From Diaphorobacter sp. HDW4B (GTDB taxonomy: Bacteria > Pseudomonadota > Gammaproteobacteria > Burkholderiales > Burkholderiaceae_C), in contig NZ_CP049905.1 in NCBI RefSeq assembly GCF_011305535.1, forward strand, positions 4,772,001 to 4,836,000: a DNA stretch of 64,000 bases, in the 5' to 3' direction. Below the pieces are notes generated by a model. The model was given only the letters and a program-made list of their open reading frames with translations. It was not told the origin of the DNA and did not search any database. A program made the translations under genes and the position numbers. Positions 17,959 through 64,000 of the stretch are shown here, one piece after another. Position 1 is the stretch's first letter. Each line of letters opens with the position of its first letter.

Positions 17959-20900
17959 ATGTCACGCTTCTTCATTGATCGGCCCATCTTTGCGTGGGTC
18001 ATCGCCATCGTCATCACGCTCGCGGGTCTGCTGTCGATTTCGACGCTGCCCGTGGAGCAGTATCCGAGCATCGCGCCGCCATCGGTGTCGATCCGCGCCA
18101 CCTACACGGGCGCGTCCGCCGAGACCACCGAAAACTCCGTCACGCAGGTGATCGAGCAGAACATGACGGGGCTCGACAACCTGCTGTACATGAGCTCCAG
18201 CAGCACGTCTGCGGGTGCGGCCCAGGTCACGTTGACCTTCGCGTCGGGCACCAACCCCGACATCGCGCAGGTGCAGGTGCAGAACAAGCTGCAGCAGGCG
18301 CAATCCAAGCTGCCTGACACGGTGCAGGCCACCGGGGTGACGGTCACCAAATCGTCGGGCAACATCTTTCTGGTACTGGCCTTCACATCGGAAGACGGCA
18401 GCATGAACGGCACCGACATTGCCGACTACATGTCCTCGTCCGTGAAGGACACGATCAGCCGCGTGAACGGCGTGGGCAATGTGCAGATCATGGGTTCGGA
18501 ATACGCGATGCGCATCTGGCTCGATCCCGAAAGGATGCGCACCTATTCGCTCATGCCATCGGATGTGTCGTCGGCACTGCAGGCGCAGAACGCCGATGTG
18601 TCCTCGGGCTCTCTGGGTGAAGTGCCTGCCGTGCAAGGCCAGTTGCTGAACGCGACGGTGAAGTCGCGCAACCGTCTGCAGACCGTCGATCAGTTCAAAA
18701 GCATCGTGCTCAAGTCCGACAGCCGTGGCGCTGTCGTGCGCCTGTCCGACGTGGCGCGTGTGGAGCTGGGCAGCCAGTCGTATTCGTCCGTCGGCAAGTT
18801 CAACGGCAAGCCCGCTGCGGCATTGGGCATTGAACTCGGTTCAGGCGCGAATGCGATGAGCGTGTCCGACGCGGTCGATGCCAAGATGAAGGAGCTGTCG
18901 CAGTTCTTCCCGAGCGGCCTGACCTACAAGGTCGCGCACAGCACCACGCCGTTCGTGAAGATCTCCATTCAGGAGGTGGTGCATACGCTGTTCGAGGCCA
19001 TCGTGCTGGTGGTCGCGATCATGTATCTGTTTCTGCAGAACTGGCGCGTCACGCTGATTCCGGCGATTGCCGTTCCGGTGGTGCTGATGGGCACGTTCGG
19101 TGTGCTGTCGGTGTTCGGTTATTCGATCAACACGCTGTCGATGTTTGCGATGGTGCTGGCGATTGGCCTGTTGGTGGACGATGCCATCGTGGTGGTGGAA
19201 AACGTCGAGCGCGTGATGAGCGAAGAGGGCTTGTCGCCCTACGAAGCCACGCGCAAATCGATGGGCCAGATCACCGGCGCGCTGGTCGGCATTGCGCTGG
19301 TGCTGACCGCCGTGTTCGTGCCGATGGCCTTCTTTGGCGGATCGACGGGCGCGATCTACCGCCAGTTCTCGGTGACCATCGCGTCGGCCATGCTGCTGTC
19401 GGTGCTGGTGGCGATGACGCTGACCCCGGCGCTGTGCGCCACCATGCTCAAGCCGATCGAGAAGGGCGGCCATGTCACGGCGCGCGGGCCACTGGGTCGA
19501 TTCTTTGCATGGTTCAACGCGCGCTTTGACGACCTGAGCCGTGGTTACGGCGGCGGTGTGAAGCGCCTGACCCGCAACCGCACGATCAGCCTGATCGCGT
19601 TCGCGGCCATCATCGGCGCGATGGCGCTGCTGTTCATGCGCTTGCCCACGTCGTTCTTGCCGGAAGAAGACCAGGGCTCGCTGTTCGTGCAGATCAAGCT
19701 GCCTTCGGGCTCCACGCAGCAGCAGACGCTCAAGGTGATGGACGCCGTCTCGGAATATGTGCGCGAGCAGCCCGAGGTGGAATCGGTGATGGCGGTGGCG
19801 GGCTTCAGCTTCTCCGGCAGCGGCCAAAACGCAGGCATGGGCTTCATTCGCTTGAAGGACTGGAGCCTGCGTCAGGCCAGTGCGACCGACATCGGCCGAC
19901 GCATCACCATGGAGATGATGAAGCGCTACAGCGATGCGCAGATCTTCGCGATGGCCCCATCGGGCATTCCCGGTCTGGGCCAGAGCGCGGGCTTCACGCT
20001 GCAACTGCTGGACCAGAACGGTGCGGGGCACGATGCGCTTGTCGCCGCTCGTCAGCAACTGCTGGCGCTTGCAGCCAAGAGCAGCAAGGTGCAGGCCGTG
20101 CGCTACGGCAGCTTGGAAGATGCGCCCACGTTCAACATCAACGTGGACGACGCCAAGGCCGGTGCGCTCAGCATCACGCAAAGCGACATCAACAACACGC
20201 TGGCGACGGCGCTGGGCAGCACCTATGTGAACGACTTCGTCAACCGTGGCCGCATCAAGAAGGTCTACGTGCAGGGCGATGCGGACTCGCGCATGCTGCC
20301 GGGTGACCTGAGCCGCTGGTCGGTGCGCAACAAGAATGGCGACATGGTGCCGTTCTCGTCGTTCTCCACCACCGAGTGGAGCAATGCGGCGGCGGCGCTC
20401 GCGCGTTTCAACGGAACGGCGTCGATGGAAATCAGCGGGCAGGCCGCGCCGGGCGTGAGCTCGGGTGAGGCGATGATCGAGATGGCAAAGTTGGTCAAGG
20501 AGATCCCGGGCGGCTTTGGCTACGCATGGTCGGGTTTGTCGTTCCAGGAGCAGCAGTCCGGCTCGCAAGCGCCGCTGCTGTACGCGATCTCGCTGCTGTT
20601 CGTGTTCCTGTGTCTGGCCGCGCTGTACGAGAGCTGGTCGATTCCGTTCTCGGTGATGTTGGCCGTGCCGATCGGCATCGTGGGCGCGCTGTTGTTCACC
20701 GCGCTGCGCGGGTTGAACAACGATGTGTACTTTCAGGTCGGACTGCTCGCCACGATTGGCCTGGCGGCGAAGAACGGCATTCTGATCGTCGAGTTCGCCA
20801 AGGAGCTGCAGGAAGACCATGGCATGTCGCTGATCGACGCCACGCTGCATGCGGCCCAGCAACGTCTGCGTCCGATTCTGATGACCTCGTTCGCCTTCAT

Positions 20901-21111
20901 GCTCGGCGTGCTGCCGCTGGTGATCAGCAAGGGCGCGGGCTCGGGCGGCCGCCATTCGCTGGGCACGGGCGTGCTGGGCGGCACCTTGGCATCCACGCTG
21001 CTGGGCATCTTCTTTGTGCCGCTGTTCTATGTGATCGTGCGCAGCCTGTTCAAGGCCAAGCCACGTTCAGCGCAAGCGCAGGTCGAACAGAACCCGGTGG
21101 TGCAGTCATGA
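17959..21111 (+). CDS. RND multidrug efflux pump (AcrB/MexB, HAE1 family)
   Basis: A 1,050-residue proton-driven inner-membrane transporter. It opens with the family hallmark SRFFIDRPIFAWVIAI, contains two periplasmic loop domains and twelve predicted membrane helices, and has the proton-relay Asp pair at residues 407-408 (LLVDDAIVVVENV), the same numbering as AcrB. The C-terminal GLAAKNGILIVEFA motif supplies the TM10 Lys. Length is normal for the family. The start follows AGAAGGAGCCC, and the stop overlaps the outer-membrane channel gene by four bases (ATGA). Substrates are likely drugs, dyes, detergents or aromatic solvents; specificity cannot be predicted. Confidence 0.95.
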   Translation: MSRFFIDRPIFAWVIAIVITLAGLLSISTLPVEQYPSIAPPSVSIRATYTGASAETTENSVTQVIEQNMTGLDNLLYMSSSSTSAGAAQVTLTFASGTNPDIAQVQVQNKLQQAQSKLPDTVQATGVTVTKSSGNIFLVLAFTSEDGSMNGTDIADYMSSSVKDTISRVNGVGNVQIMGSEYAMRIWLDPERMRTYSLMPSDVSSALQAQNADVSSGSLGEVPAVQGQLLNATVKSRNRLQTVDQFKSIVLKSDSRGAVVRLSDVARVELGSQSYSSVGKFNGKPAAALGIELGSGANAMSVSDAVDAKMKELSQFFPSGLTYKVAHSTTPFVKISIQEVVHTLFEAIVLVVAIMYLFLQNWRVTLIPAIAVPVVLMGTFGVLSVFGYSINTLSMFAMVLAIGLLVDDAIVVVENVERVMSEEGLSPYEATRKSMGQITGALVGIALVLTAVFVPMAFFGGSTGAIYRQFSVTIASAMLLSVLVAMTLTPALCATMLKPIEKGGHVTARGPLGRFFAWFNARFDDLSRGYGGGVKRLTRNRTISLIAFAAIIGAMALLFMRLPTSFLPEEDQGSLFVQIKLPSGSTQQQTLKVMDAVSEYVREQPEVESVMAVAGFSFSGSGQNAGMGFIRLKDWSLRQASATDIGRRITMEMMKRYSDAQIFAMAPSGIPGLGQSAGFTLQLLDQNGAGHDALVAARQQLLALAAKSSKVQAVRYGSLEDAPTFNINVDDAKAGALSITQSDINNTLATALGSTYVNDFVNRGRIKKVYVQGDADSRMLPGDLSRWSVRNKNGDMVPFSSFSTTEWSNAAAALARFNGTASMEISGQAAPGVSSGEAMIEMAKLVKEIPGGFGYAWSGLSFQEQQSGSQAPLLYAISLLFVFLCLAALYESWSIPFSVMLAVPIGIVGALLFTALRGLNNDVYFQVGLLATIGLAAKNGILIVEFAKELQEDHGMSLIDATLHAAQQRLRPILMTSFAFMLGVLPLVISKGAGSGGRHSLGTGVLGGTLASTLLGIFFVPLFYVIVRSLFKAKPRSAQAQVEQNPVVQS

Positions 21112-51689: not shown

Positions 51690-51708
51690 AATAAGAGTGA
51701 TTCGCATT
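51690..51708. promoter_or_regulatory. Candidate Fur-binding site
   Basis: AATAAGAGTGATTCGCATT lies about 100 bases before the ECF sigma gene. Read in reverse (AATGCGAATCACTCTTATT) it resembles beta-proteobacterial Fur boxes before fecI-type genes, although it matches the E. coli 19-mer at only about half of the positions. Iron control of this block is expected on context. Confidence 0.5.
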
Positions 51709-51805
51709 AATGTATGATCATCCCTTTGTGCCATAGGGGCCTGATCGTCTTTGCACGATTCCCGAATGGCGCGCTGCTTTTTCTGGCCGCCATTTGGGAT
51801 TCGTC

Positions 51806-52276
51806 GTGCAGGTGCACTTCTACGCAGAACTTGTCAATTTCTTCGCGCGTTCGCTCAATGATCGGGATGCGGCGCGGGATGTCGTGCAGGAGAGTTATGC
51901 GCGGGTGCTGCGCTTGCAGGCGCGCTCGGCGGTGGTGAACGATCTGCGGGCGCTGCTGTTTCGCACGGGCAAGAACATCGTGATCGACGAGGCACGCAGG
52001 CGCAAGGCCGAGACGGCGGTGCTGGAGACGTTGTCGCTGGTGCATCTGGATGATGCACCGTCGGCCCAGCAGGAGGTCGAAGCCCGCCAGCAACTGGACC
52101 GGCTGCTCGCGCGGCTCAACGTCATGCCGCGCAAGCGGCGCGAGGTGTTCGTGCTGGTGCGCGTCTATGGTTTCAGCCATGCCGAAGCGGCCGAGCACAT
52201 GGAGATTTCCGAAGGTGCAGTCGAAAAGCATGTGGTACGCGCGGTGTGCGATTGCATGGGTTTGGCCGTCGCATGA
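51806..52276 (+). CDS. ECF sigma factor, FecI type
   Basis: A sigma-70-family protein of about 156 residues. Region 2 is seen in YAELVNFFARSLNDRDAARDVVQESYARVLR and region 4 in MPRKRREVFVLVRVYGFSHAEAAEHMEISEGAVEKHV, both as in FecI/FpvI. It would direct RNA polymerase to the receptor gene when the cognate siderophore is bound outside. The start is uncertain: no ATG lies near the N-terminus; GTG at 51806, GTG at 51812 or TTG at 51794 are possible. It overlaps the FecR-type gene by four bases (ATGA). Confidence 0.88.
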   Translation: MQVHFYAELVNFFARSLNDRDAARDVVQESYARVLRLQARSAVVNDLRALLFRTGKNIVIDEARRRKAETAVLETLSLVHLDDAPSAQQEVEARQQLDRLLARLNVMPRKRREVFVLVRVYGFSHAEAAEHMEISEGAVEKHVVRAVCDCMGLAVA

Positions 52277-53268
52277 ACTTGGCCGACTTTCACGAACCCG
52301 CTGCGCGCAAGCGTCTGGAGCATGCCTTGTTGCTGCTGGCCCGTCAACATGGTGGCAGCGCGGAATCTTCTGCGCGCGCCAAGGAGGCGCTGGCGATCTG
52401 GCGCACGAAAGATCCCTTGAACGAAACGGCGGCCTTGGCGGCGACGCAGGGATGGCGCGCGACGCAGGCGTCCGATCTGCGCTCGGACATGCAAATGCCG
52501 CTGTCTCAGCAGGCGCGTCATCAGCGAACGCGGCGGCGTGTGCTGTCGGTGCTTGGCCTAGCAGCGGTGGTTGCGACGACCGCTTGCGTGACGCGTTGGC
52601 ATTGGCAGCAGCCCTTGCAGACGATTGCGCTGAACACGGGTGTGGGCGAGATGGTTTCTCACAATCTGCCGGACGGAACGCATGTCGATCTCACCCCCAA
52701 CACGCACATGGAAGTGGTGCTGTACCGCGACCGACGCGAGGTGCAATTGACGCAGGGGGCGATTCGCTTTGATGTGGCGCGTGATGAAAAGCGGCCGTTC
52801 ATCGTGACTTCGTCTTGGGGTCGGGTGCGCGTGCTGGGTACGGTCTTCACCGTCGATGCGCGCAAGGAGCGCATGAAGGTGGCGGTGGCGCATGGCCGTG
52901 TGGCGGTCTGGATGCGCGACGACGAGCACGATCGCTTTGCCGAGAAGCCGGATGTGGTGTTGCAAGACGGGCAGGGCGTACGCGTGGATGCTGATGGACT
53001 GAGCCGCACGCGCGAGGTCGATGCGAGCAACATCGGTGCATGGCGCGATGGCTGGCTGGTGTTTGATCGCACGCCGCTCAAGGAAGTCGTCATGCGCTGG
53101 AACGACTACCTGGCCAAGCCCATGCAACTCGAAGGTGGCGAGGGCCTGTTGCTCACCGGAAGCTTTCGTGTGCGCGATCCGGATACGTTTGTCGAAGCGC
53201 TGCCGCGTTCGTTGCCGGTGAAGGTGCTGCGTTCCGTGCAGGGGCAGGTGACCATCGTGCAGCGCTGA
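52273..53268 (+). CDS. FecR-family anti-sigma factor/signal transducer
   Basis: A 331-residue inner-membrane protein. The cytoplasmic N-terminus (about 1-85) should hold the sigma factor; one membrane segment is seen at about residues 88-108 (RRVLSVLGLAAVVATTACVT); the periplasmic part has the FecR motif LPDGTHVDLTPNTHMEV and a C-terminal domain (WRDGWLVFDRTPLKEVV) for contact with the receptor signalling domain. The ATG at 52273 overlaps the sigma stop. The receptor gene follows after 82 bases, completing a cell-surface signalling set. Confidence 0.92.
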   Translation: MNLADFHEPAARKRLEHALLLLARQHGGSAESSARAKEALAIWRTKDPLNETAALAATQGWRATQASDLRSDMQMPLSQQARHQRTRRRVLSVLGLAAVVATTACVTRWHWQQPLQTIALNTGVGEMVSHNLPDGTHVDLTPNTHMEVVLYRDRREVQLTQGAIRFDVARDEKRPFIVTSSWGRVRVLGTVFTVDARKERMKVAVAHGRVAVWMRDDEHDRFAEKPDVVLQDGQGVRVDADGLSRTREVDASNIGAWRDGWLVFDRTPLKEVVMRWNDYLAKPMQLEGGEGLLLTGSFRVRDPDTFVEALPRSLPVKVLRSVQGQVTIVQR

Positions 53269-53350
53269 AAAAAACAGTTGAAAAAATTTTGTCCGGTTTT
53301 TGGCGACTCGTGCGTCTTCAGGTGGAAAAACACTCCAAGGAACGCACTTC

Positions 53351-55903
53351 ATGAGCTGCCCGCAAAAATCAGATTTCGACCTTTCCCGCAACGGCTCCGA
53401 CGGGGAGGAGCACCCAGCGCGGCCCGCCTCGTCGCTGCACGCCATCATGCTGGCCTGTGTGGTGGCGATGGCGGGCGCTGGTTTGCCAAGCATGGCTCAG
53501 GCTCAGTCCGGACGCGAGGCAATGAGCGCATCGCGCCAACTGAGCCTGCCTGCGCAGCCGCTTGGGCAGACGCTGAACATGCTTGCACGCACGTGGGGTG
53601 TGTCGATTTCGGTGGACTCTGCCTTGGTCGAAGGTCGTACGGCACCGGCGCAGCAGGGGGCGAGCACACTGGGTGAGGCTTTGCAGAAGGCGCTCGCGGG
53701 AACGGGACTGGTGGCTGTTCCCACGGGCGCCTCCGTCACCGTGCAACGCGCGCCTGCGCCAACGAGCGAGCGCGTGCGGCCAGCACCCGCAGCCGGTCAG
53801 GTGGATTCTCTGGAAGAAGTGCGCGTGACGGAAGCGGCCATGCCCAGCGTCTACAGCGAGGGCAAGCGCAGCTACACGCCGCAGAGCGTGGAAGTGGGCA
53901 AGGCGGCCCAATCGCTGCGCGAGATTCCGCAGTCGGTCACCGTCGTCACGCGCCAGCGCATGGACGATCAGGCAATGCGCACGCTCGATGAAGTGATGAA
54001 CTACACGACTGGCGTGACGCGCGAGGAAAATTGGCTGGACACGACCTACCAGTCGCGTGGTCTGAACATCACCAATTTCCGCTACGACGGCAGCGCCACG
54101 ACCTCGGTGCGCTCGGGAGCACGTTCGCAGGACATGGCGCAGTTCGACAGCGTGGCCCTGCTGCGCGGACCGGATGGACTGTTCGGCGCGGGCGAGGCGG
54201 GGGGCGTGATCAACTTCACCTACAAGCGCCCGCAGGCCGAGCGCAAGACCAAGGTGCTGGTGTCCGCCGGAACCATGAACAACTACCGCGCCGAGCTGGA
54301 CACGACCGGTGCGCTCAACGAATCGGGCAGTCTGCGTGGCCGCGCCGTGGTGGTCACGCACAACCGCGACGACATGGCCGAGCCTTCGCGCCAGAAGCGT
54401 CGTCTGCTGTACGGAACGGTGGAAATGGACCTGGCACCCGAGACCGTCGTGACGCTGGGTGCGAGCTACCAGAACGACAAGAATCCCGGCTTCAATTCCA
54501 GTCTGCCGCGCTATGCGGATGGATCGGACATCGGTTTCGCGCGTGACACCAACATGGGTGCGCCGTGGAACTGGCTCAATCGCGAGAACACGACGCTGTT
54601 CGCCAAGCTCGATCATCAGTTGGCCGCTGGCTGGAAGCTCAAGGCGCAAGTGCGTCACACGCGGTTCAACGAGGGCATCAACGCCGCCGAAATCGAAAAT
54701 GCACCATCGCCGACCACGGGATCGGGTGCGGATTGGTGGATCAATCAGGTCAAGACAAAGTCGCGTGAAACCGGTGTCGATGTGAACGTGCAGGGCGGCT
54801 TCGATGCACTGGGTCAGCGCCACGATGTGATCCTCGGCTTCGACACGCAGCATTCCAACGACTACAGCCGCAGCCTGTGGCCGCGCATCGGCTCGGCGGA
54901 TGTGTTCAATCGCACGCCACCTGCGGACCCCGGTTACCCCATGGCCGACTGGGCCTATGGCTCGCAGACGGTCACGCAGAGGTCGGGCCTTTATGGCTCG
55001 CTGCGCATGCGTCCGGTCGAGAACGTTGCCGTGGTGCTCGGCGGTCGCTACACCTTGCAGGAACGCTCGACGCAACATGACAAGTCGGGCACGTTGAACT
55101 CCAAGGTGGTCGAGGGCAACGTGTTCGTGCCCTATGCCGGTGTGATCTGGGATGTGTCGCGCGATTTCAGCGTTTATGCCAGCACGGCGGAAATCTTCAA
55201 GTCGCAGGCGGACAAGCTCTCTGCGCCGCTGCCCGGCACGCCGCTCGATCCGGTGCGCGGTCGCACCTACGAACTGGGCGTGAAGGGCGAGTTGGCGCAA
55301 GGGCTGGCGGGCAGCGCGGCGATCTTCCGCACCGAGAAAAAGGGCGCAGCGGCCATGGACCCCGCGTATCCCAGCACCGAATGGCGTGGAGGCTGTTGCT
55401 GGTTCCGCGACGGGTATCAGCTCAGTCAGGGCATCGACCTGGAGTTGACCGGCCAGGTCGCGCCCGACCTGCAAGTCGCGATGGGCTATACCTTCAATGA
55501 CAACGTGGACAAGCGCGCGGGCGACGAGCGTTTTGCGACCATCACGCCGCGCCATCTGTTCAAGGCCTGGGGCAACTACCGCTTCTCCGGCGATCTGCGC
55601 GGTTGGAGTGCAGGGGCCGGTGTGACCATGCAAAGCGGCACCTTCCGCAAGTCGGGCATCAACGCCTACAACCCGGACAGCGGCCAGTACGACGGTGCAT
55701 GGACCGCCTACCAGTTCAATGCACCCGGCCATGCCATCTGGTCCGCGCGCGTCGGCTACGAAATCAACAAGGACTGGAGCGTGGCGATGAACATCTCCAA
55801 CCTGTTCGACAAGACGTACTACAGCACCGTGGGCTACGCCGGTTACGGCAACTTCTACGGCGAAAAGCGCGCCGTGGTGTTCACGCTGCAGGGCAACTTC
55901 TGA
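53351..55903 (+). CDS. TonB-dependent siderophore receptor with STN signalling domain
   Basis: An 850-residue outer-membrane receptor. A long signal region ends near residue 53 (PSMAQAQ); the STN domain runs from about 58 to 135 (LSLPAQPLGQTLNMLARTWG); a TonB-box-like EEVRVTEA is near 155; the plug contains REIPQSVTVVTRQRMDDQ and LLRGPDGLFGAGEAGGVINF; the 22-strand barrel ends VVFTLQGNF. The STN domain fits control through the upstream FecR and sigma factor. The ATG at 53351 follows AAGGAA; a longer frame from 53300 has a poor start. Closest in type to ferric pyoverdine/hydroxamate receptors (FpvA/FoxA class); the ligand is unknown. Confidence 0.94.
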   Translation: MSCPQKSDFDLSRNGSDGEEHPARPASSLHAIMLACVVAMAGAGLPSMAQAQSGREAMSASRQLSLPAQPLGQTLNMLARTWGVSISVDSALVEGRTAPAQQGASTLGEALQKALAGTGLVAVPTGASVTVQRAPAPTSERVRPAPAAGQVDSLEEVRVTEAAMPSVYSEGKRSYTPQSVEVGKAAQSLREIPQSVTVVTRQRMDDQAMRTLDEVMNYTTGVTREENWLDTTYQSRGLNITNFRYDGSATTSVRSGARSQDMAQFDSVALLRGPDGLFGAGEAGGVINFTYKRPQAERKTKVLVSAGTMNNYRAELDTTGALNESGSLRGRAVVVTHNRDDMAEPSRQKRRLLYGTVEMDLAPETVVTLGASYQNDKNPGFNSSLPRYADGSDIGFARDTNMGAPWNWLNRENTTLFAKLDHQLAAGWKLKAQVRHTRFNEGINAAEIENAPSPTTGSGADWWINQVKTKSRETGVDVNVQGGFDALGQRHDVILGFDTQHSNDYSRSLWPRIGSADVFNRTPPADPGYPMADWAYGSQTVTQRSGLYGSLRMRPVENVAVVLGGRYTLQERSTQHDKSGTLNSKVVEGNVFVPYAGVIWDVSRDFSVYASTAEIFKSQADKLSAPLPGTPLDPVRGRTYELGVKGELAQGLAGSAAIFRTEKKGAAAMDPAYPSTEWRGGCCWFRDGYQLSQGIDLELTGQVAPDLQVAMGYTFNDNVDKRAGDERFATITPRHLFKAWGNYRFSGDLRGWSAGAGVTMQSGTFRKSGINAYNPDSGQYDGAWTAYQFNAPGHAIWSARVGYEINKDWSVAMNISNLFDKTYYSTVGYAGYGNFYGEKRAVVFTLQGNF

Positions 55904-55932
55904 TCGCGGGGAGAGGTGGACATGGAGATCGG

Positions 55933-56229
55933 ATGCTCATGAGTGGAGCCAAAACTGCCAAGCGCTCGGCGCCGTTTTTTCAGCGACTAGTGGCTGCCGT
56001 GCTCGGTGGCTACCTGCTTGCCAGCGCGTGGATCGTGTTCTGCGGTGCGCTTTCGCAGCCCGCGGCAGAAGCCGTGCTGGCGGGCATGCAGATCAGCTTC
56101 GCGATCCATGTGGCGGCGATCATTTGGTCGTTCTCGCCGGTTTCGATTGCACGCGTGTGGGTGGGGTTGGTCGTGCCTGTCGCGCTGTTGTCCGTGGCCA
56201 CCTGGGCGCTGATGCAGTGGCGGGGTTGA
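55933..56229 (+). CDS. Small membrane protein, DUF3649
   Basis: A 98-residue protein with about three hydrophobic segments (LVAAVLGGYLLASAWIVFC, FAIHVAAIIWSFSP, VWVGLVVPVALLSVATWAL). It is recognised as DUF3649, a family found beside PepSY and DUF3325 genes in iron-uptake loci. Function is unknown; it may assist reduction or release of iron at the inner membrane. Two ATGs (55933 and 55939) are possible. It lies between the receptor and the PepSY gene. Confidence 0.78.
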   Translation: MLMSGAKTAKRSAPFFQRLVAAVLGGYLLASAWIVFCGALSQPAAEAVLAGMQISFAIHVAAIIWSFSPVSIARVWVGLVVPVALLSVATWALMQWRG

Positions 56230-56230
56230 G

Positions 56231-57901
56231 ATGAGCGAAAAACCTGAACAAGGGGCGCTGACCGGCGCTGGCACGGGCGGCTTTCGGCAGGCACATTCAT
56301 GGCTGCACACCTGGTGCGGGCTGTGGTTCTCGTGGCTGCTGTTTGCGGTGTTTCTGACCGGCACGCTCGCGGTTTTCGAGGAGCCCATCACGCACTGGAT
56401 GACGCCGGAGCACCATGCCGAAGAAGCGGCTGAGCGCAGCAAGCCCCAACCCACGGCATCGCTCTCGCAGCGACTTGCCTGGGGCATCGACTACATGCGC
56501 GAGCATCACCTTTCGGCCTCGATGTGGGAGCTGTGGCCCGCCGATGCCCAAGGTGCGGGCGATCTGCGTGTCTACTGGTTCGACAGCAACCGGCAATACG
56601 CCGCAGCGCAGTTGAGCACGGCGGATGGCTCGCCGTCTCAGCCTGCCAATGCACCGCCGGTGCGTGGCACGCAGGGCGGGCACCACTTCGTCACCTTCCA
56701 CTACGAACTGCATGCCGGGACAGTGGGGCTGTGGATTGTCGGCATTGCGGCGCTGGCCATGCTGGTGGCGCTGGTGAGCGGGGTGATCACGCACAAGCGC
56801 ATCTTCAAGGATTTTTTCACCTTTCGCGCGAAGAAGGGCCAGCGCAGTTGGCTGGACGCGCACAACGCGGTGGCGGTGCTCACGCTGCCATTCCAGTTCA
56901 TGATTGCGTACACGGGTCTGGCGATTTCCGCATCGACCTTCATGCCCGCAGGCATTGCCGCGCATTACGGCACGCAGGCGGCTGACAAGGAGCGCTTTTC
57001 CGCCGAAATGAACGAACCCGGCAAGCCCGCGCCCAGCGGCAAACCCATGGCAGTGCCAGATCTGGAGCCGTTTGTGCTGCGCGGCCAGCAACTCATGGGT
57101 CAGCCCGTGCGTGCCGTGGTGGTCGATCATCCCGGCGATGCGGCGGCGCGCATTGGCGTCTATGGCTGGAACGACGAAGCCAGCAGCAAGCAGCGACTGA
57201 GCCCGACCAGCGGCATGGCGATGTTTTCGGCCGCCACTGGCGAGGTGCTGCAGGTACGGCTGCCCGGTGCCACCGATGGCGGCAACGCCACGCTCGCGCA
57301 ATCGGTGATGGGCGGTTTGCACATGGTGCCGTTTGGCGGGTTGGCGCTGAAGTGGCTGTATTTCACCTGCGGGCTGATGGGCAGCGCGATGATGGCCACG
57401 GGCGCGATTCTCTTCATGGTCAAGCGGCGGAACAAACATCTGGGCGAATTCGGTGCATCGACAGCGCGCGTCTACCGTTTGATCGAGGGACTGAACGTGG
57501 CGGCGATTGCGGGTTTGGGTGTCGCCTGCATTGGCTATCTCTGGGCCAATCGTCTGGTGCCGCTCGGCATCGCGCACCGTGATGACTGGGAGATCGGTGT
57601 GTTCTTCGCGCTGTGGGCGCTGTCGCTGCTGCATGCGTGGTGCCGACAGCCAAAGGCCGCATGGCGTGAACAACTGGGTTTGTTGGCCTTGTTGTGCGTG
57701 CTTTTGCCTGCGTTGAACTGGATGACCACCGGCGAAATGTTGTTGACGCAGATGCTGCATGGCGACTGGGAAAGCGCGGGCGTGGAGGGGGTTGCTGTGA
57801 TCACTGGTGTGCTTGCTGCCTGGGCCATCCGTTGGCAAATGCGGCCAGCGTCGGTACGTTTGAAATCGCCGAAAGCCGTTGCCGTCGAGGTGAGCCAATG
57901 A
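56231..57901 (+). CDS. PepSY-associated membrane protein (PiuB/FpvG-like iron reductase family)
   Basis: A 556-residue inner-membrane protein with the family motif HSWLHTWCGLWFSWLLFAVFLTGTLAVFEEPI at the first helix, a periplasmic PepSY domain, a second helix group near residue 170 (GIAALAMLVALVSGVITHKRIFKDFF) and further helices to the C-terminus. Relatives such as FpvG reduce ferric siderophore iron in the periplasm. It begins one base after the DUF3649 stop and overlaps DUF3325 by four bases. A role in releasing iron from the imported siderophore is the best inference. Confidence 0.9.
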   Translation: MSEKPEQGALTGAGTGGFRQAHSWLHTWCGLWFSWLLFAVFLTGTLAVFEEPITHWMTPEHHAEEAAERSKPQPTASLSQRLAWGIDYMREHHLSASMWELWPADAQGAGDLRVYWFDSNRQYAAAQLSTADGSPSQPANAPPVRGTQGGHHFVTFHYELHAGTVGLWIVGIAALAMLVALVSGVITHKRIFKDFFTFRAKKGQRSWLDAHNAVAVLTLPFQFMIAYTGLAISASTFMPAGIAAHYGTQAADKERFSAEMNEPGKPAPSGKPMAVPDLEPFVLRGQQLMGQPVRAVVVDHPGDAAARIGVYGWNDEASSKQRLSPTSGMAMFSAATGEVLQVRLPGATDGGNATLAQSVMGGLHMVPFGGLALKWLYFTCGLMGSAMMATGAILFMVKRRNKHLGEFGASTARVYRLIEGLNVAAIAGLGVACIGYLWANRLVPLGIAHRDDWEIGVFFALWALSLLHAWCRQPKAAWREQLGLLALLCVLLPALNWMTTGEMLLTQMLHGDWESAGVEGVAVITGVLAAWAIRWQMRPASVRLKSPKAVAVEVSQ

Positions 57902-58242
57902 CCGAGTTGCATGCTGGCTTGGTTGTGTTGGCGCTGGCTTGGGGCGGGATGACGGCGCTCGCTTTTGCGATGGATCGGCATCACGAACAGTTGACCGGAA
58001 AGCGGTCTATGGCCTCTTCGCGGGCCATATCGTTGCGCGGGGCAGGGGCTTTCATGCTGCTGTTATCTGCGGTTCCGAGCATCCTGGTTTGGGGCTCCAC
58101 CGTGGGTTTTGTCGCATGGCTGGGATTTGTGTCTGCCGGCGCATTGCTCGCGGTGGCAGGCATTGGCGCAAATGCGCGTTGGACGCTGCGTGGTGTGCTG
58201 TTGGCATTGCTTGCGTCGGTCGTTTCACTGGTTTGGTTTTGA
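57898..58242 (+). CDS. Small membrane protein, DUF3325
   Basis: A 114-residue protein with three to four hydrophobic helices; the N-terminal AGLVVLALAWGGMTALAFAMDRHHEQL is the family hallmark (His-His after the first helix). DUF3325 genes usually accompany PepSY and DUF3649 genes in iron loci. The ATG overlaps the PepSY stop (ATGA). Function is unknown. Confidence 0.82.
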   Translation: MTELHAGLVVLALAWGGMTALAFAMDRHHEQLTGKRSMASSRAISLRGAGAFMLLLSAVPSILVWGSTVGFVAWLGFVSAGALLAVAGIGANARWTLRGVLLALLASVVSLVWF

Positions 58243-58307
58243 GTATGTACAGGGTCTGGCATGGAATGGTTGTTTGAGCGTCGTCTGGCGTCCTATGGAG
58301 TGGGGCG

Positions 58308-59483
58308 ATGAAGAACGCACGCGGACGAGTCTTGCTTTGGGGTGGCTTGTTGCTGCTGGGCGCTGGCGCCGCTGCACTTTGGTGGAGCACGCGCGAGCAC
58401 ACGGTCTACACGACCGAAGTGGTGAAGCGCGGCCATATTGAAGCCACGGTGACCGCCATCGGCACGCTGCAGCCGCTGCGTTATGTGGATGTGGGTGCGC
58501 AGGTGTCGGGTCAGATAACGCGCTTGCTCGTTGCGCCCGGCGCGGTGGTGAAGAGGGGCGATCTACTGGTGGAAATCGACCCCAGCGTGCAGCGCGCAAC
58601 CGTTGATGCGGGCCGCGCGCAGTTGGCCAATTTGCGCGCGCAATTGGCCGAGCAGCAGGCGCAGCAGCGCTTGGCACATCAGCAACTGGCGCGCCAACGG
58701 CAACTGACGGCCGAAGAGGCCACGCGGCTGGAAGACCTGCAAACGGCCGAGGCCGCTCATGCGCAGGCCAGCGCGCGCATCGACCAGTTCAAGGCGCAGA
58801 TCGATCAGACGCAAGCGACGCTCAAGGCCGATGAGGCGCGGCTTGGCTACACGCGCATTTATGCGCCGATGGCGGGCACGGTCGTGTCGGTTGATGCGCG
58901 CGAAGGGCAGACGCTCAACGCCACTTATCAGACACCGGACATGCTGCGCGTCGCCGACCTGTCGGGCATGACGGTATGGACCGAAGTCTCCGAAGCCGAC
59001 ATTCGCCGCGTGCAACCTGGCTTGCCTGTTTACTTCACCACCTTGGGCGGGGCGGACGATGGTGACAAGGCGCGGCGTTGGCACGGCAAGGTGCGTCAGG
59101 TGCTGCCCGCGCCGCAAGTCGCCAAGGCACAGGCTGGTGCGGCCCCCAAACCCGCCACAGCCAGCAAGGCGGTCACCTACACGGCGCTGTTCGATGTGGA
59201 AAACGCGGACGGCGAGCTCATGCCGCAGATGACGGCGCAGGTGGTTTTCATCACCGCCAAGGCCGAGAACGCGGTCGTTGCGCCCCTGTCGGCCATGACG
59301 GTGATCGGCGATGCCACGACCGCACGCGTGCTCGATGCGAACGAACAGCCACAGTCCCGCACGCTGCGTTTGGGCGCACGCAGTCGCCATCAGGTCGAGG
59401 TGCTGGAAGGACTGGGCGAAGGTGATCGGCTCATCACCTCGGAAGCCAAGTCCGGCGGTGGATTGCGATGGCTGCAATGGTGA
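58308..59483 (+). CDS. Periplasmic adaptor, MacA/PvdR type
   Basis: A 391-residue membrane-fusion protein, the same length as PvdR. It has a single N-terminal membrane anchor (about 8-26), lipoyl halves (VGAQVSGQITRLLVAPGAVVKRGDLLVEID), a long alpha-hairpin rich in Gln and Ala (residues about 95-175), YTRIYAPMAGTVVSVDAREGQT, and a beta-barrel domain. It partners the MacB-type ABC transporter, whose gene overlaps its end by 16 bases. In pseudomonads the PvdRT-OpmQ pump recycles or exports pyoverdine; the position after a siderophore receptor suggests the same for a different siderophore. Confidence 0.9.
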   Translation: MKNARGRVLLWGGLLLLGAGAAALWWSTREHTVYTTEVVKRGHIEATVTAIGTLQPLRYVDVGAQVSGQITRLLVAPGAVVKRGDLLVEIDPSVQRATVDAGRAQLANLRAQLAEQQAQQRLAHQQLARQRQLTAEEATRLEDLQTAEAAHAQASARIDQFKAQIDQTQATLKADEARLGYTRIYAPMAGTVVSVDAREGQTLNATYQTPDMLRVADLSGMTVWTEVSEADIRRVQPGLPVYFTTLGGADDGDKARRWHGKVRQVLPAPQVAKAQAGAAPKPATASKAVTYTALFDVENADGELMPQMTAQVVFITAKAENAVVAPLSAMTVIGDATTARVLDANEQPQSRTLRLGARSRHQVEVLEGLGEGDRLITSEAKSGGGLRWLQW

Positions 59484-61456
59484 CGGTTCACGCCGAAACG
59501 CCTCCCGCACTGATCGAGCTGAAAGGCATTCGCAGAAGCTACGGCGGCACGGGTGGACAGCCCGAGGTGGAGGTGCTGCACGGCATCGATCTGCAGATCC
59601 ACGCAGGCGAATTCGTCGCCATCGTCGGTCAGTCGGGATCGGGCAAGTCCACGCTGATGCACCTGCTGGGCTGCCTGGACCGTGCAAGCAGCGGCTCGTA
59701 CCGGTTTGCGGGACACGATGTTTCGCAGCTCGATTCCGATGAGCTGGCATGGCTGAGGCGCGAGGCGTTTGGTTTTGTGTTTCAGGGCTATCACCTGATT
59801 CCCACCGAATCGGCGAGCGAGAACGTGCAGGTCCCCGCGCTCTATGCCGGTTTGCCCGAGCATGAACGCGCGCAGCGGGCGGCTGCATTGCTGACGCGCT
59901 TGGGATTGAATGACAAACTCGACCTGCGGCCCAACCAGCTTTCGGGCGGGCAGCAGCAGCGCGTGTCGATCGCACGAGCGCTGATGAACGGCGGGCGCAT
60001 CATCCTGGCCGACGAGCCCACAGGTGCGCTCGACAGCAAGAGCGGCGAGCAGGTCATGGCGCTGCTGCACGAGTTGGCCGATGCGGGCCACACCATCATT
60101 CTGATCACGCACGATCATCAAGTGGCGTCGCAAGCCAGGCGCGTGGTGGAGATCCGCGATGGCAACATTCTCGCGGACAGTGCGGACCACAGCGTCCCCA
60201 TCCAAAGCAAGGCCGAGCCCTTGCGGCTCGATCCATCGCAAGCGCAATATGCGGCGGCCAATACGCTCTGGAACGACCTGCGCGAGTCCGCACGCACTGC
60301 CTGGCGCGGCATGCGGCTCAACCGCGTGCGCACGGGGCTCACGCTGCTCGGCATCGTGATTGGTGTAGCGTCGGTGATCGTGATGCTGGCGATTGGCGAA
60401 GGCGCGCGTCGCCAGGTGCTTGAACGCATGGGCACCATGGGCACCGCGATTCTGTACATGGGCAGCCGCCCGCCTGCAACGGGCGGGCCATCGGGTGAAC
60501 TCACAGAGGCCGATCTGCAGGCGGTGCGCGAGCTGCCCGAGATACGCTACGTGCTGCCCGTCATTGGCGATCCGACGACCGTGCGCTACGGAAGCAAGGA
60601 CAAGGAAATCTACGTGTTCGCCTCAAGCGAGCAGATGCCTGCTGTCCACCATTGGCCGGTGGAGCAGGGCCGTTTCTATACCGAGGCGGAAGACCGCGCG
60701 CTCGCGCCGCTGGTGGTGTTGGGACACAAGGCGCGCCAGCATTTCTTTCCCGATACGCCCAATCCGCTGGGTCGCCAGTTGCTGATCGGCGCGTCGCCCT
60801 TCGAGGTGGTTGGCGTGATGTCCGAGCGCGGTGCGGATTCGGGCGCGCAGGACTATGACGACATGGTTTTCATCCCGTATCGCGCGGGTCGTGCGCGGGT
60901 CTATCAAACGCAGACGCAGCCCGACTATGTGGTGATGCAGGCCATGTCGTCCGAAGTGGTGAACGAGGCGGAAGCCGCGATTCGCACGCTGCTGATTGCG
61001 CGCCATGGTCGCGAGGATTTCGGCATCGGCAACGCCGCCGCGCGCATCCAGGCCGAGATGGCGACGCGGCGCAGCATGAGCGTGATGCTGGGGCTGATTG
61101 CGGCGGTGTCGCTGGTGGTGGGCGGCATTGGCGTGATGAACGTGATGCTCATGACCGTGAAGGAGCGCACACGCGAGATCGGCATTCGCGTGGCGACCGG
61201 TGCGCGTCAGCGCGACATTCTTCGGCAGTTCATGACGGAGGCGGTGCTCGTCACGCTGGTCGGCGGAACGGTCGGCGTGATCGCAGGCCTTTTGGTGGGT
61301 GCGGTGTTGATCGTGTCGAATGTGCCGGTGGTCTTTTCGGTATCGGCCATGCTGGGCGCTTTCGCCTGCGCGGTGGCTACAGGGCTGGTGTTCGGATACA
61401 TGCCAGCGCGCACGGCGGCGCGGCTCGACCCCGTGGCCGCGTTGACGGGAGAGTAA
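59468..61456 (+). CDS. MacB/PvdT-type ABC transporter
   Basis: A 662-residue fused ATPase-permease. Walker A GQSGSGKST is near residue 54, the signature LSGGQQQRVSIARAL near 157, Walker B IILADEPTGALDS near 177; a membrane helix precedes the large periplasmic domain (GIVIGVASVIVMLAIGEGARRQV near residue 295) and three helices close the protein (with GVMNVMLMTVKERTREIGIR). Length equals PvdT. It overlaps the adaptor gene by 16 bases and is followed after 6 bases by the outer-membrane factor. A macrolide exporter is the alternative reading; context favours siderophore traffic. Confidence 0.93.
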   Translation: MAAMVTVHAETPPALIELKGIRRSYGGTGGQPEVEVLHGIDLQIHAGEFVAIVGQSGSGKSTLMHLLGCLDRASSGSYRFAGHDVSQLDSDELAWLRREAFGFVFQGYHLIPTESASENVQVPALYAGLPEHERAQRAAALLTRLGLNDKLDLRPNQLSGGQQQRVSIARALMNGGRIILADEPTGALDSKSGEQVMALLHELADAGHTIILITHDHQVASQARRVVEIRDGNILADSADHSVPIQSKAEPLRLDPSQAQYAAANTLWNDLRESARTAWRGMRLNRVRTGLTLLGIVIGVASVIVMLAIGEGARRQVLERMGTMGTAILYMGSRPPATGGPSGELTEADLQAVRELPEIRYVLPVIGDPTTVRYGSKDKEIYVFASSEQMPAVHHWPVEQGRFYTEAEDRALAPLVVLGHKARQHFFPDTPNPLGRQLLIGASPFEVVGVMSERGADSGAQDYDDMVFIPYRAGRARVYQTQTQPDYVVMQAMSSEVVNEAEAAIRTLLIARHGREDFGIGNAAARIQAEMATRRSMSVMLGLIAAVSLVVGGIGVMNVMLMTVKERTREIGIRVATGARQRDILRQFMTEAVLVTLVGGTVGVIAGLLVGAVLIVSNVPVVFSVSAMLGAFACAVATGLVFGYMPARTAARLDPVAALTGE

Positions 61457-61462
61457 GCAAAG

Positions 61463-62872
61463 ATGCAGTCACGAATCAACCCATTGGCGTTGGCATGCAC
61501 TGCCTTGCTGATGCTGAGCGCCTGCGCCACGCAGAATGCCGATCTGAAAGTGCCAGACTCAACCCTGCCGCAGAACTGGACGCAAGCCCCAACCTCATCA
61601 CTACCACCATCATCGAACGCCGCGCTGTCGCACGAATGGTGGCGAGGCTTTGGCAGCAACGAGCTCGATGCCCTGATCCAACGTGCATTGGAGCGCAGCA
61701 ACGACGTGGCCTCAGCGGTCGCGCGCGTGCGCCAGTCCGAAGCGCTTGCAAGACAGGCCGGAGCGGCGTTGCTGCCAGAACTGAGTGTTTCGCTCAACGC
61801 CCATCGACAAGCCCGGATCAGCGGAGACGCAGCAGTCTCCGGCAACCAGTTCGGAGTGGGCTTTTCGGCCAGTTATGAGGTCGATTTCTGGGGACGCAAC
61901 CGCGCCATGTCCGATGCCGCGCTCGCGCAATGGCAGGCCAGCGTTTTCGACCGGGACATTGTGAAGCTCAGCATGGCCGCGCGCGTGGCCGATGCATGGC
62001 TGCAGACGCAGGCATTGCATGAGCGCCAACGCATTGCCGAGCGCAATCTGGCCAACGCACAGCGACTGCTGCGCTGGCTGGAGTCGCGCGCCAAGGCGGG
62101 CTCCGCATCCGCGCTTGAACTGGCGCAGCAGCGTGGTCTGGTGGCATCGCAGCGCCGAAACATCGCCGCGTTGCAGCAGCAGATGTCTCAGGCACGAAGC
62201 ACAGTCTCGGTCCTGTTGAGCGAGCCCGTTCTGCCGCCATCTCCGCAGGCGGAGTGGGGCCGATTGACGGAGCCGCCGGTCGCCGCAGGCTTGCCATCGC
62301 AACTGCTTACCCGTCGCCCGGACATCGCACGTGCAGAAGCGCAACTTACCGCTGCCCATGCCAATGTCGTCGCCGCCCGCGCCGCCATGCTGCCTTCCCT
62401 CACGCTCAGCGCGGGCATCGCGGCGGGCGGCCGAAGTCTGGGCAGTGCCTTCGATCATCCGCTCTACACGCTGGCCGCCAATCTGGCCGCGCCCATCTTC
62501 AACGCAGGCCGGCTCCAGGCCGGTGCCGATCTTGCATACGCGCAGCGCGAAGAACTGCTCGCCAACTACCGCCAATCCATCGTCGCCGCGTTCGCAGATG
62601 CTGACGTCGCACTGCAGGCCGTGGACCAATTGCAGTCGCAAAACCTCGCACAAGGAGAAGTGCTTGCGCAGGCAGAGCGCGCACTGACATTGGCCGAGCG
62701 CCGCCATGCAGCCGGTGCGGAGACCTTGCTGGTGCTGCTGGATGCGCAGCGCAGTCTGTATGCGGCTCAGGATGAAGCCGTGCAACTCAAGCTCGCGAGC
62801 TTGCAGACGCGGGTGGCTTTGTTCAAGGCCTTGGGGGGAGGGTGGCTTGGGGAGCGTTCGGACTTGCTGTGA
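61463..62872 (+). CDS. Outer-membrane factor lipoprotein (OpmQ/NodT family)
   Basis: A 469-residue outer-membrane channel of the tripartite exporter. A lipoprotein signal with lipobox LSAC near residue 22 precedes two OEP domains; the family sequence YEVDFWGRNRAMSDAALAQ is near residue 140 and RRHAAGAETLLVLLDAQRSLY near 415. It is the last gene of the iron block. The convergent DUF4124-like gene stops 13 bases away. Confidence 0.92.
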   Translation: MQSRINPLALACTALLMLSACATQNADLKVPDSTLPQNWTQAPTSSLPPSSNAALSHEWWRGFGSNELDALIQRALERSNDVASAVARVRQSEALARQAGAALLPELSVSLNAHRQARISGDAAVSGNQFGVGFSASYEVDFWGRNRAMSDAALAQWQASVFDRDIVKLSMAARVADAWLQTQALHERQRIAERNLANAQRLLRWLESRAKAGSASALELAQQRGLVASQRRNIAALQQQMSQARSTVSVLLSEPVLPPSPQAEWGRLTEPPVAAGLPSQLLTRRPDIARAEAQLTAAHANVVAARAAMLPSLTLSAGIAAGGRSLGSAFDHPLYTLAANLAAPIFNAGRLQAGADLAYAQREELLANYRQSIVAAFADADVALQAVDQLQSQNLAQGEVLAQAERALTLAERRHAAGAETLLVLLDAQRSLYAAQDEAVQLKLASLQTRVALFKALGGGWLGERSDLL

Positions 62873-63639: not shown

Positions 63640-64000
63640 TTGAATGCTCACAAAAACATAGTCCAGCGTTGGACACTGACGCTCCTGGCCAGCTTGGTAC
63701 TTGTCGCCTGCGGTGGCGGCGGCAGTGGATCGAATGCATGGACCGATCCCCCGGCTTCCGGGCAGGCTCCTGACAACAGCACTCCGTCGGAGGTCACGCC
63801 GCCCACGGAGGTGCCGCCTCTTGAAGTGCTGCCGCCGACCACGGAAACCCCTGGCGAGACGCCTCCGGTGACCGAGACGCCAGTGGTCACGCCACCCACC
63901 ACGGAGACGCCCGTCGTCACGCCCCCTGTGACCGAAACGCCTGTGGTGACTCCGCCCACGACGGAAACTCCTGTCGTCACGCCTCCGGTGGTGGTGACGC
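63640..64000 (+). CDS. Repeat-containing lipoprotein, N-terminal part (runs off the window)
   Basis: An open frame on plus continues past the window edge. It encodes a lipoprotein signal (basic start, TLTLLASLVLVAC lipobox, then GGGGSGS) and a Thr/Pro/Val-rich region in which the decapeptide TETPVVTPPx recurs at least four times, in alternating VTE and TTE versions, each about 30 bases. The proposed TTG start is at 63640; an in-frame stop at 63631 excludes longer readings. An ATG at 63644 is one frame off and closes after five codons. Such Pro/Thr spacers hold surface domains away from the membrane; the function of the missing part is unknown. Confidence 0.65.
   Translation, partial: MNAHKNIVQRWTLTLLASLVLVACGGGGSGSNAWTDPPASGQAPDNSTPSEVTPPTEVPPLEVLPPTTETPGETPPVTETPVVTPPTTETPVVTPPVTETPVVTPPTTETPVVTPPVVVT
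63850..64000 (+). repeat. Tandem 30-base coding repeats
   Basis: Units of about 30 bases encoding TETPVVTPPx follow one another to the window edge, with alternating synonymous variants (ACGGAGACGCC, ACCGAAACGCC, ACGGAAACTCC). Copy number beyond the edge cannot be seen. Repeats of this sort can vary in number by slippage. Confidence 0.75.

Follow-up and report, generated by a model that had tools for sequence, protein, structure and literature searches.

In Pseudomonas aeruginosa, the siderophore pyoverdine is reduced in the periplasm and recycled by the tripartite pump PvdRT-OpmQ, according to the available excerpts of PMC6954188. Return of a stripped siderophore is already established in this setting, that of a producer and its own molecule. 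For foreign siderophores, the accessible text of a 2024 Burkholderia study considers that the stripped xenosiderophore might be exported and leaves the exporter unnamed (PMC10866019); in PMC13001220 the words 'efflux' and 'export' do not occur. Here we describe a nine-gene block at 51.8-62.9 kb of a 64,000-nt stretch of Diaphorobacter sp. HDW4B (contig NZ_CP049905.1, positions 4,772,001 to 4,836,000; hereafter the window). Head to tail on the + strand, it encodes an extracytoplasmic function (ECF) sigma factor, a FecR-type regulator, a TonB-dependent receptor (TBDR) bearing an STN signalling domain, a DUF3649-like protein, a PepSY_TM protein, a DUF3325 protein, and an exporter composed of MacA, MacB and an outer membrane factor (OMF). 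On balance, we read this block as a self-contained cassette that catches a siderophore, strips it of iron and re-exports it, and whose core recurs in other species alongside different receptors. The arrangement is real and conserved, and it is apparently an undescribed variant of pyoverdine recycling without synthesis and with exchangeable receptors; a search of the open-access PMC literature found no description of it.

Results

By sequence kinship, the exporter is PvdRT-OpmQ-like, as all three subunits are nearest to PvdR, PvdT and OpmQ. A preliminary description of the window had noted a match in subunit lengths, which is borne out (391/662/469 aa for adaptor, ATP-binding cassette (ABC) protein and OMF, vs 391/663/474 aa for the P. 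aeruginosa counterparts in an annotated record), and kinship agrees. The window adaptor is 54.8% identical to PvdR vs 37.4% to Escherichia coli MacA, the ABC protein is 56.0% identical to PvdT vs 45.4% to E. coli MacB, and the OMF is 48.9% identical to OpmQ. Against five further MacAB-OMF sets from the host's family, identities are 47-53, 50-52 and 39-44% (adaptor, ABC protein, OMF). The best NCBIfam models for the window proteins are MacA and MacB, yet both matches fall below the curated cut-offs (255 vs 342 and 658 vs 966 bits), as do those of PvdR and PvdT. We built a MacB tree of 80 rows in quick mode, leaving out about 20 near-copies or short rows beforehand and rooting at the midpoint for drawing. 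A branch with 99 support in the Shimodaira-Hasegawa-like approximate likelihood ratio test separates two groups: on one side, E. coli MacB with the MacB proteins of the five further family sets; on the other, PvdT, four hydroxylase-adjacent exporters and the receptor-linked exporters. A MacA tree (79 rows) places PvdR between the other MacA proteins and the betaproteobacterial rows, and brings five hydroxylase-linked rows together in one group (100/99). The identities and the MacB tree argue against an ordinary MacAB drug pump, and we discarded that candidate. Separately, two P. aeruginosa records labelled 'plasmid' (L162, L164) carry the pyoverdine region with FecR gene, pvdRT-opmQ, receptor and nonribosomal peptide synthetase (NRPS) genes; they are perhaps excised chromosomal segments.

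We examined conservation of the block by scanning one genome per species (84,980 species) with two MacA motifs as seed, and counted the best 80 of 135 loci; the scan is biased toward relatives of its seed, and some of the stored stretches are short. PepSY occurs together with MacA and MacB at 55 of the 80 loci, and the exact order DUF3649-PepSY-DUF3325-MacA-MacB is kept at 46, which rules out a chance neighbourhood. This five-gene core is preceded directly by a receptor at 38 loci and followed directly by an OMF at 21, and 60 loci have a receptor match somewhere in their stored stretch. Among the hosts are Comamonas, Delftia, Acidovorax, Variovorax, Janthinobacterium and Massilia, as well as Zoogloea, Azoarcus, Azonexus, Dechloromonas, Herminiimonas and Advenella. 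In a sample of 299 genomes of the family, MacAB adjoins PepSY at six of the eight places where PepSY is at least 61% identical to that of the window, and at none of the five with 43-47% identity. On the second contig of G000, locus L048 (G000:C2:10000-29900) holds a PepSY-DUF3325 pair and two further receptors with sigma and FecR genes, but shows no exporter match.

The PepSY_TM protein belongs to the FoxB/FpvG family and is a putative ferric-siderophore reductase. A profile of 15 PepSY sequences has a single match in the PDB, the siderophore reductase FoxB (7abw, E 5.9e-7); a search of the PDB with the single sequence returned nothing relevant. Histidines 26, 157, 188, 211 and 364 are invariant across the 15 sequences, and His26 and His157 align with histidines of FoxB. 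We take the conserved histidines to be haem ligands. Two gene fusions, one case each, tie the small membrane proteins to the pump and the reductase. In Simplicispira metamorpha (L134:9650-11110), DUF3325 is joined in-frame to the PvdR-type adaptor MacA, and both domains are recognised in the resulting 487-aa protein; in G291 (L039), a PepSY protein carries a C-terminal DUF3649, a marginal match of 21.8 vs 21.2 bits. DUF3325 also stands as a table entry adjoining PepSY in a Stenotrophomonas regulon, in the accessible portion of the siderophore paper PMC6240677, and we found no mention of DUF3649 in the open-access PMC literature.

These fusions bear on a competing view, in which the exporter mainly expels mis-metallated siderophores, or products of siderophore breakdown, and not the apo-siderophore left after reduction. 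Titles cited in the available part of PMC8891985 supply precedents, namely control of the metal selectivity of pyoverdine uptake by PvdRT-OpmQ and secretion of linearised siderophore products by Salmonella MacAB, and no sequence feature separates a pump of this kind from a recycling one. The linkage of exporter to reductase, together with the DUF3325 fusion, favours a step coupled to iron release, and we consider a selectivity or clean-up pump unlikely but worth keeping in view.

In genome-wide profile searches in which control genomes were positive, the host genome (6.21 Mb, 2 contigs, 100% complete) matched neither the NRPS condensation (C) domain PF00668 nor the NRPS-independent siderophore (NIS) synthetase family PF04183 (IucA/IucC). 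By the synthetase criterion, the block is not a self-siderophore biosynthesis locus, as NRPS and NIS genes are found neither in the locus nor in the genome. The preliminary description had seen no synthetase and had named a synthesis cluster just outside the window as grounds for giving up its reading; the 20 kb that follow the window (L047) contain none of eleven query gene types, and no such cluster turned up genome-wide for the two families. Cassette and NRPS occur independently of each other within the genus: two genomes have the cassette alone (G000, G003), one has NRPS alone (G001), one has both (G004), and two have neither (G002, and G005, which is 83% complete).

This distribution bears on the alternative that the block is a relic: a cluster that once served a self-made siderophore would have lost its synthetase genes in this lineage, and the uptake and export genes would be what remains of it. 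In P. aeruginosa, the sigma gene, the FecR gene, pvdRT-opmQ and the receptor do sit with synthetase genes, and some congeners have kept NRPS genes. Four observations speak against a relic: (i) in G004, NRPS and cassette lie 1.65 Mb apart, and the receptor at the NRPS locus is 26% identical to that of the window; (ii) hydroxylase matches (query L075, PF13434, E 4e-123), found in the stored stretches of 4 of the 80 loci, occur at none of the 55 PepSY-MacAB loci within their stored flanks, and of the two NRPS-like matches among the 80, only one, L088, falls among the 55, in a genome without C domains; (iii) synthesis-linked exporters form a MacB subclade of their own on the PvdT side of the tree (four hydroxylase-linked rows plus L037, support 100), with 68 rows in another (92); and (iv) every gene of the window block is intact. 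We regard a relic as rather improbable. The missing C domain also ruled out L088 as a synthesis cluster, and its NRPS-like match is perhaps a lone adenylation-type enzyme. The G004 NRPS locus (G004:C1:566018-588489 and L045), which has a hydroxylase match as well as a separate receptor, looks like a self-siderophore cluster.

We next consider the receptor. Our comparison comprised 42 rows, of which two are fragments and two pairs each represent one genome. Two congeners have receptors 82% and 88% identical to that of the window; identity to it is 68-73% at seven loci (Comamonas, Simplicispira and a metagenome-assembled genome) and 28-36% in the other 33 rows, with none intermediate. In 18 representatives, identities to the window run from 0.60 to 0.85 for MacA and from 0.47 to 0.79 for PepSY. 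Because receptor identity is bimodal and the core varies little, the receptors seem exchangeable. The signalling module varies as well: the window receptor and that of L030 have both an STN extension and a FecR gene directly before them, and the seven close receptors have neither. Among the 42 receptors, 20 have both features, 18 have neither, two have STN only and two FecR only (Fisher 1.5e-7, uncorrected for relatedness). Judged from these sequences, receptor and signalling module both look exchangeable. The window itself has the FecI/FecR/STN arrangement of cell-surface signalling, its STN receptor lying next to FecI- and FecR-type genes. The sigma factor is 41.9% identical to that of the P. 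aeruginosa pyoverdine region and 90-96% identical to those of two congeners. Against the PDB, the pyochelin receptor FptA ranks first for the window receptor, and FpvA matches along the signalling domain; among NCBIfam models, FauA ranks first, far below its cut-off.

Retention of the core alongside changing receptors also bears on a protective role, in which the pump would clear toxic compounds resembling siderophores, such as sideromycins, once the receptor has let them in. Other bacteria use MacB-type pumps to expel antibiotics, and placement beside a receptor would suit this role. It leaves the retention of pump and reductase together across exchanged receptors unexplained, and we hold it to be very improbable.

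We surveyed siderophore synthesis across cassette hosts. Among the 55 PepSY-MacAB genomes, 50 were searched (their completeness is not stated); NRPS C domains occur in 21 of these and are absent from 29, and 28 of those 29 lack NIS as well. All ten Comamonas isolates tested are without C domains, and an uncultured Comamonas (L128) has three. Six of ten further genomes in which PepSY and MacAB share a locus (G000, G003, G004, G222, G140, G291, G245, G190, G089 and G257) lack both synthetase families, giving 34 of 60 cassette genomes without PF00668 and PF04183. The cassette is ruled out as a marker of non-producers, as its genomes are not poor in NRPS. The preliminary proposal of a scavenging non-producer hence fits this host, which has no NRPS or NIS, and does not extend to the cassette as a whole, which is often found in NRPS genomes.

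Coordinates of the block are collected in Table 1. All genes of the preliminary list were found where it had placed them, in its order and direction. The overlaps it had claimed are present at three joints: the DUF3325 start (ATG 57898) sits within the PepSY stop codon (ATGA), the MacA and MacB genes share 16 nt, and FecR overlaps the sigma gene by 31 nt with the listed GTG start, or as ATGA if FecR starts at 52273. The remaining joints are short gaps of 1-65 nt. The DUF3649 label stands through the family, since 13 of 17 aligned members match PF12365, and not through the window protein, which has no Pfam match of its own and is 31-53% identical to 16 counterparts.

Table 1. Positions of the block genes and of a candidate regulatory site in the window
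Feature	Position	Strand	Basis and remarks
Fur-box-like site, upstream of the sigma gene	51693..51711	+	12/19 matches to an E. coli Fur consensus
ECF sigma factor, FecI/FpvI type	51794..52276	+	PF08281 2.2e-15, PF04542; start uncertain
FecR-type regulator	52246..53268	+	PF04773 9.4e-21; alternative start ATG 52273
TonB-dependent siderophore receptor, N-terminal STN signalling domain	53300..55903	+	PF00593, PF07715, PF07660 (STN, above cut-off), TIGR01783; ATG 53351 is the likelier start
DUF3649-like small membrane protein, 98 aa	55933..56229	+	family alignment (PF12365)
PepSY_TM protein, putative periplasm-facing ferric-siderophore reductase	56231..57901	+	PF03929 2.1e-61
DUF3325 small membrane protein	57898..58242	+	PF11804 1e-21
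PvdR-like periplasmic adaptor, MacA family	58308..59483	+	identity to PvdR
PvdT-like ABC transporter, MacB family	59468..61456	+	PF12704, PF00005, PF02687
OpmQ-like outer membrane factor, NodT type	61463..62872	+	PF02321, TIGR01845

Sites corresponding to the Fur-box-like site score 14 in L030 and 13 in L031. The score by itself is weak, because 12/19 or better recurs at 13 places within the window; the argument for the site is a stretch of about 28 nt around it that is conserved between diverged flanks in an alignment of three congener genomes.

Elsewhere in the window, we noted three features, judging the encoded products by eye. An open reading frame (ORF) begins at 63640-64000 with Pro/Thr-rich repeat units after a lipoprotein-like signal, and probably encodes a surface protein. 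The first residues of a 1050-aa ORF at 17959-21108 resemble a resistance-nodulation-division drug-efflux pump. Between 38000 and 46000, G+C is 0.54-0.56 in two 2-kb bins vs about 0.63 nearby, with genes of aromatic-degradation type.

Discussion

We propose the following sequence of events for the cassette. The STN receptor would import a ferric siderophore made by other cells and, judging from domain anatomy and co-occurrence, may switch the block on via FecR and the ECF sigma factor. The siderophore would halt in the periplasm, where, by analogy with the FoxB/FpvG family, the PepSY reductase could reduce Fe(III) and free Fe(II), aided by DUF3649 and DUF3325. Pumps of the PvdRT-OpmQ class take their substrates from the periplasm. 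Kinship, gene order and the DUF3325-MacA fusion suggest that the exporter might then send the empty siderophore back to the medium. Pfam matches to periplasmic binding protein or ABC importer families of the FpvCDEF type are found for none of the nine block proteins, so counterparts of these iron chaperones and of the Fe(II) importer are absent from the block and would need to be encoded elsewhere.

Several observations weigh against a catch, strip and re-export cassette. NRPS is, if anything, commoner with the cassette than in the family sample at large (21 of 50 genomes vs 80 of 299 above cut-off, Fisher p 0.04), so the siderophore that the cassette serves could in many hosts be one made by the host itself. 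By distance correlations, the receptor does not separate cleanly from the core (TBDR-PepSY r 0.56, PepSY-MacA 0.59, TBDR-MacA 0.39), so the case for receptor exchange rests on the bimodal identities. In the MacA tree, the receptor-linked rows do not form a single clade apart from the synthesis-linked rows. The PepSY structure model is of low confidence (predicted local distance difference test 62); two FoxB chains are its sole PDB fold matches under 0.001, with TM-scores of only 0.23-0.33. In two genomes, G151 and G126, the 20 kb retrieved contain a PepSY protein 69% identical to that of the window and no MacAB of this kind. The G140 exporter looks broken in a draft assembly (L033:11015-14416): a stop codon lies within the MacA frame, and MacB and OMF are apparently frameshifted and fused by an internal deletion, which appears to be decay or an assembly error.

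Lastly, the genome-wide absence of synthetases covers two families, PF00668 and PF04183, which leaves room for a siderophore made by a route other than NRPS or NIS, with the block as an ordinary locus for its export and uptake. As most characterised bacterial siderophores require one of these families, we find such a route scarcely credible.

If the recycling cassette is as we propose, a broader role can be sketched tentatively, as something possible more than expected. The core DUF3649-PepSY-DUF3325-PvdR-PvdT-OMF may be a general iron stripper and siderophore returner with plug-in receptors in betaproteobacteria, with which non-producers would make catalytic use of foreign siderophores and return them afterwards. 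DUF3325 might link reductase to pump for direct handover without an FpvF-like periplasmic carrier. If this is true, 'cheaters' can return a siderophore they have taken rather than destroy it, models of siderophore piracy change, and piracy becomes reuse of a public good. It would also give DUF3649 and DUF3325, both unnamed domains, a testable role. Culturable hosts include Comamonas testosteroni, for which we found no paper on siderophores or xenosiderophores in the open-access PMC literature. Its strain ATCC 11996 (L092) has the cassette but neither C domains nor NIS, and its receptor, at 70% identity, belongs to the type found in the window.

The closest known counterpart is the pyoverdine system of P. 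aeruginosa, which shares with the block an ECF sigma factor, a FecR-type regulator, an STN receptor, a PepSY reductase and a kindred tripartite pump, and in which the FecR gene, pvdR, pvdT and opmQ are also adjacent. Unlike that system, the block has no synthesis genes and no FpvCDEF-like proteins, carries DUF3649 and DUF3325 in place of FpvH/J/K, has a receptor only 24% identical to FpvA, and unites receptor, reductase and pump in one run of genes in the same direction. The exporter has the architecture of MacAB-TolC but differs in that its MacA and MacB score under the curated cut-offs and its MacB groups with PvdT. As in FecI-FecR-FecA, sigma factor, FecR and STN receptor are consecutive, whereas what follows them in the window are reduction and export genes, with no ferric-complex importer in that place. 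Finally, Pseudomonas FoxA-FoxB, Burkholderia FhuA-FhuB and Caulobacter HiuABC likewise pair a receptor for foreign siderophores with a neighbouring PepSY_TM protein, but no exporter is reported for them in the available text of the two papers (PMC10866019, PMC13001220). The cassette offers a candidate exporter within the same block as receptor and reductase.

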